Assembly (NCBI GenBank): GCA_021781955.1
Contig: JAJXVV010000006.1
Coordinates: 1 to 47,254, forward strand
Source of the DNA: a bacterium
Lineage (GTDB): Bacteria > Patescibacteriota > Minisyncoccia > Phycocordibacterales > UBA2100
Direction: 5' to 3'
DNA: 47,254 nt
Position numbers and translations under genes: made by a program. The stretch's first letter is position 1; each line of letters opens with the position of its first letter. Positions 39,664-45,409 of the stretch are shown piece after piece. The notes under the pieces were generated by a model, which ran no database searches, was not told the DNA's origin, and worked only from the letters and a program-made list of their open reading frames with translations.

Positions 39664-39674
39664 AAAGTAACCAG

Positions 39675-39745
39675 TGGACCTACGGGGAGTCGGACCCCGA
39701 CCTCGTCCATGCCATGGACGCGTTCTACCGCTGAACTATAGGCCC
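39675..39745 (-). tRNA. tRNA-Ala (GGC)
   Basis: GGGCCTATAGTTCAGCGGTAGAACGCGTCCATGGCATGGACGAGGTCGGGGTCCGACTCCCCGTAGGTCCA; loop ATGGCAT. Confidence 0.95.
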
Positions 39746-39820
39746 AAGTGAAGAACAATGCGGAAGCTCGCTCGCATTTTTCCCGAACGCCAGGTCTACA
39801 TGGCTTCCGCATATAGGCCC
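39746..39820 (-). ncRNA. Conserved structured 5' leader of tRNA-Ala(GGC)
   Basis: 75-nt ungapped similarity (62/75) to 45261-45335; -10-like TAGTAT 10 nt upstream of the block. Confidence 0.55.
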
Positions 39821-39862
39821 GAATTCATGAATACTAGCAAAAAGTGATAGGATGAGCCATCC

Positions 39863-45199: not shown

Positions 45200-45260
45200 G
45201 TTTTGAGTGTACACTGATCGATTGAGAGAACTCTTTTTGTTTGCTATATTTCTTCAGCAA

Positions 45261-45335
45261 GGGTCTATATACGGAAGTCACATAGACCCGGCGTCCGGAG
45301 AAAATGTAAGCGAGCTTCCGCTTTGTTCCTCACTT
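45261..45335 (+). ncRNA. Conserved structured 5' leader of tRNA-Ala(CGC)
   Basis: Matches 39746-39820 (minus strand) 62/75 ungapped; hairpin GGGTCTAT...ATAGACCC; -10-like TATATT 10 nt upstream. Confidence 0.55.
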
Positions 45336-45409
45336 GGGCCTATAGTAAAGTGGTATTACGCGGCATTCGCATTGCCGAGTCCGGGGTTCGACTCCCCGTA
45401 GGTCCACCA
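45336..45409 (+). tRNA. tRNA-Ala (CGC), CCA present in DNA
   Basis: GGGCCTATAGTAAAGTGGTATTACGCGGCATTCGCATTGCCGAGTCCGGGGTTCGACTCCCCGTAGGTCCACCA; loop TTCGCAT. Confidence 0.95.

Follow-up and report, generated by a model that had tools for sequence, protein, structure and literature searches.

The 75-nt leaders of the two tRNA-Ala genes in the window (the whole 47,254-nt stretch of DNA analysed here) are probably copies of a small DNA element that is non-autonomous, belongs to the type formed by REPs and by the ends of IS200/IS605 transposons, and would act as a single-stranded hairpin. We put the probability of this reading at about 0.64. The element is a dispersed hairpin of ~70-75 nt found across Patescibacteria, and it carries a 9-nt guide that complements the 9 nt directly following the element and, at tRNA genes, also its left flank.

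ARAGORN identifies seven tRNA genes in the window, both tRNA-Ala genes included; the source genome is small (741 kb, 46 tRNAs) and contains an RNase P RNA gene. The first-pass annotation had observed that the two tRNA-Ala leaders align without gaps at 62/75 positions, that 12 of the 13 differences are transitions, that a -10-like hexamer (TAGTAT or TATATT) stands exactly 10 nt before each block, and that the tRNA-Glu and tRNA-Val leaders read in the window do not resemble the pair. All of this is reproduced here, with the remaining upstream pairs matching at just 12-25/75. The features of both loci are collected in the table.

Table. Features of the two element-bearing tRNA-Ala loci (window coordinates)
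Feature	Position	Strand	Basis
tRNA-Ala(GGC)	39674..39745	-	ARAGORN
Element copy 1, the entire tRNA-Ala(GGC) leader	39746..39820	-	model R2, E=1.8e-13; 62/75 vs copy 2
Copy 1 left copy GGGCCTATA, identical to tRNA-Ala nt 1-9	39812..39820	-	sequence
Copy 1 guide TGTAGACCT	39792..39800	-	sequence comparison; permutation test
Copy 1 conserved hairpin P2, between CGTTC and the TCACTT tail	39752..39784	-	covariation
Copy 1 right end/target GGGCCTATA, tRNA-Ala(GGC) nt 1-9	39737..39745	-	comparison and permutation test
-10-like TAGTAT, 10 nt upstream of the left copy	39831..39836	-	sequence; spacing statistics
tRNA-Ala(CGC)	45336..45409	+	ARAGORN
Element copy 2, the entire tRNA-Ala(CGC) leader	45261..45335	+	model R2, E=3.3e-18
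Copy 2 left copy GGGTCTATA, 8/9 identical to tRNA nt 1-9	45261..45269	+	sequence comparison
Copy 2 guide CATAGACCC, 8/9 with the left copy, 7/9 with tRNA nt 1-9	45281..45289	+	sequence comparison
Copy 2 conserved hairpin P2	45297..45329	+	covariation; covariance model
Copy 2 right end/target GGGCCTATA, tRNA-Ala(CGC) nt 1-9	45336..45344	+	sequence comparison
-10-like TATATT, 10 nt upstream of the left copy	45245..45250	+	sequence; spacing statistics

Read toward the tRNA, the element consists of a left copy (tRNA nt 1-9), a loop (frequently AAGCNNNGCTT), the 9-nt guide, two bases, a CRYTCGG linker, the hairpin P2 and a CTCRCTW tail, after which the tRNA begins. Copies away from tRNA genes share this plan from the loop to the right end, and at tRNA and non-tRNA copies alike the sequence right after the tail mostly reads N7-TA-R. 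In both window leaders the first nine bases repeat tRNA nt 1-9 (8/9 in copy 2) and form pairs with leader nt 21-29. The guide of copy 1 complements the left copy and tRNA nt 1-9 at 8/9 positions counting wobbles, with a C.A mismatch at position 4. Stems P1 and P2 covary, with two-sided changes at 20/20 model pairs and in 226 cells, against 55 in shuffled and 27-50 in slid controls; the alignment that gives the 226 cells was fitted to the structure, and an unfitted set of nine sequences agrees with it. A hairpin with a GGAA tip, proposed earlier for leader positions 11-18, falls in the loop, which is not conserved among copies. A second proposed hairpin, GCG-AGCTTC-CGC, is indeed conserved, but as the tip of the longer conserved hairpin and not as a separate small one. 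We also considered a loop-to-tail pseudoknot (GAGGATCG/CGATCCTC) and rejected it as a general feature: it is present in few copies, and loops vary.

A covariance model built on the nine Ala leaders finds matches in 38/52 genomes of the genus and 83/297 of the order, and a broader model finds them in 55/238 genomes of the class and, at a stricter cut-off, in 19/240 of the phylum. The search of relatives that had been suggested as a check therefore recovers the block, with strong covariation, and its description as conserved, structured and downstream of its own promoter is confirmed. For the same reason, recent gene duplication, put forward as the simpler alternative, is not the explanation. 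The idea of an element tied to alanine does not survive, however. At loci fetched from 46 genomes the element stands before 74 tRNA genes, which represent 12 amino-acid types; searches for leader plus tRNA place it 5' of tRNA-Ala in several congeneric species and in one other family, and also 5' of tRNA-Thr and tRNA-Trp, while phylum-level copies lie 5' of tRNA-Gly, Glu and Lys. One genome (G112) carries it at 11 tRNA genes, and genomes contain 0-14 model matches each. An Ala-specific riboswitch or leader is thus rejected, both by the 12 amino-acid types and by copies at non-tRNA sites, which also speak against a dedicated tRNA leader.

Within the window, the covariance model finds no copy besides the two tRNA-Ala leaders, and tRNA-Ala(TGC), the third tRNA-Ala of the genome, has no leader. 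A third copy of the element lies outside the window (G000:C9:125065-125134), directly 5' of tRNA-Lys(TTT). A weak fourth match (L236, G000:C11:52861-52943, minus strand, E=4.3e-4) lies away from tRNAs; its right flank, GACCGTAAA, seems complementary to the stretch 5' of its hairpin (ACGGTC). In another genome (G005), a truncated tRNA-Ala-like stretch, GGGCCCATAGTTCAGTGG..., stands immediately 5' of an intact tRNA-Ala(CGC) (L060); it is apparently a pseudo-tRNA with no relation to the element. Rfam covariance models give the element no match at gathering score; weak antisense 'Plastid-ycf2' scores land on the tRNAs, and membership of a known Rfam family is rejected. No such element is described in Patescibacteria in the open-access papers that we searched. 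Viral carriage was considered as well, and a search of IMG/VR with two exact patterns gave no match.

The pairing of the guide with the right flank is common to the copies at tRNA and non-tRNA sites. Among tRNA copies (n=55), guide and right flank pair at 7.05/9 Watson-Crick positions against 4.40 when shuffled (z=14.8); among non-tRNA copies (n=32), the values are 7.22/9 and 4.63 (z=13.1). The nine right-flank bases used here lie outside the covariance model. For 67/74 guides, moreover, their own tRNA is a better partner than any dissimilar acceptor. The copies at Ala(CGC) and Pro(GGG) in one genome (G013) have cores that are 98% identical and guides that share 4/9 bases, each guide fitting its own tRNA; either the guide was rewritten on arrival, or the cores were homogenised by gene conversion. 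Core similarity is only slightly higher within genomes (0.69) than between them (0.67), so that most copies are probably old. At two loci (L086, L094), left flank and guide have changed together and departed from the tRNA.

Copies away from tRNA genes are mostly extragenic, with 40/48 outside long ORFs and 8/48 inside; random positions in these loci fall inside such ORFs in 66% of cases. In one genome, two dispersed copies (L202/L203) have the right end GACACGATAAGA in common and diverge beyond it, and another such pair (L204/L205) shares GCCACAATAGAAA in the same way, which indicates that the right end belongs to the element. A long extra hairpin (ACCCC...GGGGT) precedes the copies at L202 and L203 (G016), repeated at both sites, and there may be larger composite elements. 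Head-to-tail arrays are also seen, with identical neighbouring copies in G112. One inner copy of a G192 array (L116) combines the Ala sequence GGGCCTGTA on its left with a guide and right end that differ from it (TGCTCCAAC/GTTGGAGTA), an arrangement explained if an element that brings its right end along inserted behind an N7TA already present. Some orthologous sites are empty. The spacer between the divergent tRNA-Arg(CCG) and tRNA-Ala(GGC) genes is 116 nt long in the genome of the window (G000) but 24 nt in G010 and G033, and the element is missing from most tRNA-Ala(GGC) and tRNA-Trp genes of relatives. The promoters also agree with insertion between promoter and tRNA. Where a tRNA gene bears the element (n=53), the highest-scoring -10-like box peaks 9-12 nt 5' of the left copy, and at 188 element-free tRNA genes it peaks at a like distance from the tRNA itself; the median -10 score is 5.9 before the left copy and 5.7 before element-free tRNAs, but 3.7 directly 5' of the tRNA in element-bearing genes. 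Comparison of near-identical genomes caught no recent insertion between them.

We hypothesize that base-pairing of the guide picks a 9-nt site (N7-TA, before G10 in tRNAs), and that the element is cut and joined beside it. Insertion between tRNA nt 9 and 10 would rebuild the tRNA 5' end: the right-end nine bases would be carried in by the element, and the former tRNA 5' end would be left behind as the first nine bases of the leader. Because the element's own right end equals the target site, the 5' end would be restored and the tRNA would survive; insertions with non-matching right ends would break the tRNA and be lost. A single 9-nt guide would in this scheme read both the left target and the right end. 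The leader would then be transcribed and removed, presumably by RNase P, whose RNA the genome encodes.

Integrative elements that target tRNA genes restore the 3' part of the tRNA from element-borne sequence, with an integrase. The element described here is similar in that a tRNA gene would be targeted and restored, but in our model it is the 5' nine bases that are restored, and by an element of only ~75 nt. A closer parallel is offered by the ends of IS200/IS605 transposons such as IS608 and ISDra2, in which a guide beside a subterminal hairpin pairs with the flanking cleavage or target site; guide sequences 5' of the hairpin select the cleavage sites (PMC6006769, PMC8266576), and IS608 has been retargeted by changing the guide (PMC8266576). 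Here the likeness is one of complementarity only. Natural IS200/IS605 guides, unlike the present one, are tetranucleotides, whereas the nine bases of our element stand in Watson-Crick register and could serve both flanks; the genome of the window also lacks tnpA. The reading of 12-17-nt sites by IS608 needed engineering (PMC5934647).

We advance more tentatively, as a proposal less likely than not, that Patescibacteria harbour target-matched mobile DNA of a class so far undescribed, in which each copy would carry a guide rewritten for its tRNA target, read both of its ends with that guide and bring in the first nine bases of the tRNA, so that many tRNA genes are colonised harmlessly by means of a putative new enzyme. 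If the insertion model is right, some nine bases of DNA-DNA pairing naturally choose an insertion site in Patescibacteria, a mode of site choice achieved only by engineering in IS608 (PMC5934647). It would also show how almost every tRNA gene could be entered harmlessly from its 5' flank, account for leader-bearing tRNAs across the whole phylum, and point to a single-strand DNA recombinase with programmable targets.

What enzyme could mobilise such an element? A narrower form of the preferred explanation is a true REP family mobilised in trans by a RAYT/TnpA_REP Y1 transposase, possibly one since lost from some genomes. Like REPs, the element is short, dispersed, mostly extragenic, non-autonomous hairpin DNA that occurs singly or in tandem and has its recognition stretch on the 5' side of the hairpin foot (PMC6006769, PMC3733652), and a guide 5' of the hairpin beside the cleavage site follows the logic of both IS200/IS605 and REP (PMC6006769, PMC8266576). 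At one locus (L149, G032:C21), an ORF for a RAYT-like Y1 transposase (237 aa, 594-1307) lies between two copies in the same orientation (436-504 and 1327-1404), with a further repeated palindrome of the ACAAAGCTCNGAGCTTTGT type beside them; this is possibly a REPtron. RAYT as a partner, an idea prompted by this locus, was rejected: other RAYT neighbourhoods are empty of copies and show no enrichment, and the domain and the element do not co-occur across the 297 genomes of the order (Y1_Tnp, PF01797, in 51/83 genomes with the element vs 131/214 without, OR 1.01, p=1). Y1_Tnp is absent from the genome of the window, and copies flank one of about 36 transposase loci examined. A mobilising enzyme was found neither by the Y1_Tnp search of the genome, nor by order-wide co-occurrence, nor in transposase neighbourhoods. 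In addition, the element differs from REPs in its 9-nt guide, which changes from target to target where REPs have a constant GTAG/CGTC tag, in its exact placement at tRNA 5' ends, and in its low copy number; CGTC near the hairpin occurs only in some non-tRNA copies. CGTC-type REPs likewise have no dedicated transposase (PMC3733652). On balance, we consider RAYT mobilisation unlikely, though the best of the alternatives.

Rather less likely is a functional, structured pre-tRNA leader, in which a mimic of the acceptor stem and a second hairpin would control RNase P processing, folding or tRNA dosage. Such a leader would explain the strong covariation and the position of the element between promoter and tRNA, where it would be transcribed. 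Compensatory changes also partly keep P1 as the left copy drifts at L086, and the joint changes of left flank and guide at L086 and L094 would suit an RNA hairpin as well. The composition of the stems points the other way. In stems kept as RNA, G.U is expected far above A.C. The G.T:A.C counts are 18:35 in P1 and 20:27 in P2, against 70:10 in the tRNA acceptor stems of the same loci (Fisher p=1.8e-10 and 1.4e-7, respectively), from which we infer that the pairing is not kept up as sense RNA. These counts agree better with a hairpin of single-stranded DNA, although such evidence is indirect, and transcription of the sense strand is expected all the same.

The distribution of the element further disfavours an RNA role, whether as riboswitch, ncRNA or processing element: it is missing from most orthologous tRNA genes, isotype specificity is absent, and the same element recurs at non-tRNA sites and in arrays. 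T-box and other leader RNAs are comparable as structured leaders linked to a tRNA; unlike them, the element has no terminator, specifier, T-box sequence, isotype specificity or Rfam match. The first-pass annotation is partly supported, its sequence observation standing exactly and its RNA-leader interpretation being mostly wrong or disfavoured. A conserved, covarying 'leader' need not be RNA. The insertion model for its part predicts that the right end of the element overwrites tRNA 5' strands, and the proportion of acceptor wobbles (31% vs 22%, p=0.13) lends this no support. Among tRNA-Trp genes of the genus (L266-L285), an acceptor U.G wobble at position 4 or 6 is common with or without the element; as element-free tRNA-Trp genes carry these wobbles too, they were rejected as a trace of overwriting.

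An explanation that dispenses with an enzyme, and which we judge improbable, is that replication slippage and gene conversion at tRNA genes lengthen, shorten and correct the nine-base direct repeats and the hairpin. Direct repeats do flank the element, tandem copies are identical, and the near-identical cores with different guides at two tRNAs of G013 would be expected of conversion, but the arrival of the element at new tRNAs and non-tRNA sites throughout the phylum is left unexplained. The probability of an attC-like folded site for a tyrosine recombinase is lower again. An integron attC site is a folded single strand with an outer stem, an unpaired spacer and an inner stem with an unpaired base, and occurs in head-to-tail arrays of small cassettes. 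The element has a similar plan, with a guide/right stem, a CRYTC/TCRCT internal loop, an inner stem with an unpaired 3' base, and head-to-tail arrays; however, it has no conserved recombination boxes (GTTRRRY/RYYYAAC), and its outer stem copies and tracks the target, whereas attC boxes are fixed. Finally, a relic of tandem tRNA duplication, that is, a degenerate tRNA, would account for the first nine bases equalling those of the tRNA and is scarcely credible, since the similarity stops at nt 9-10 and the remainder is a motif common to unrelated tRNAs and non-tRNA sites.
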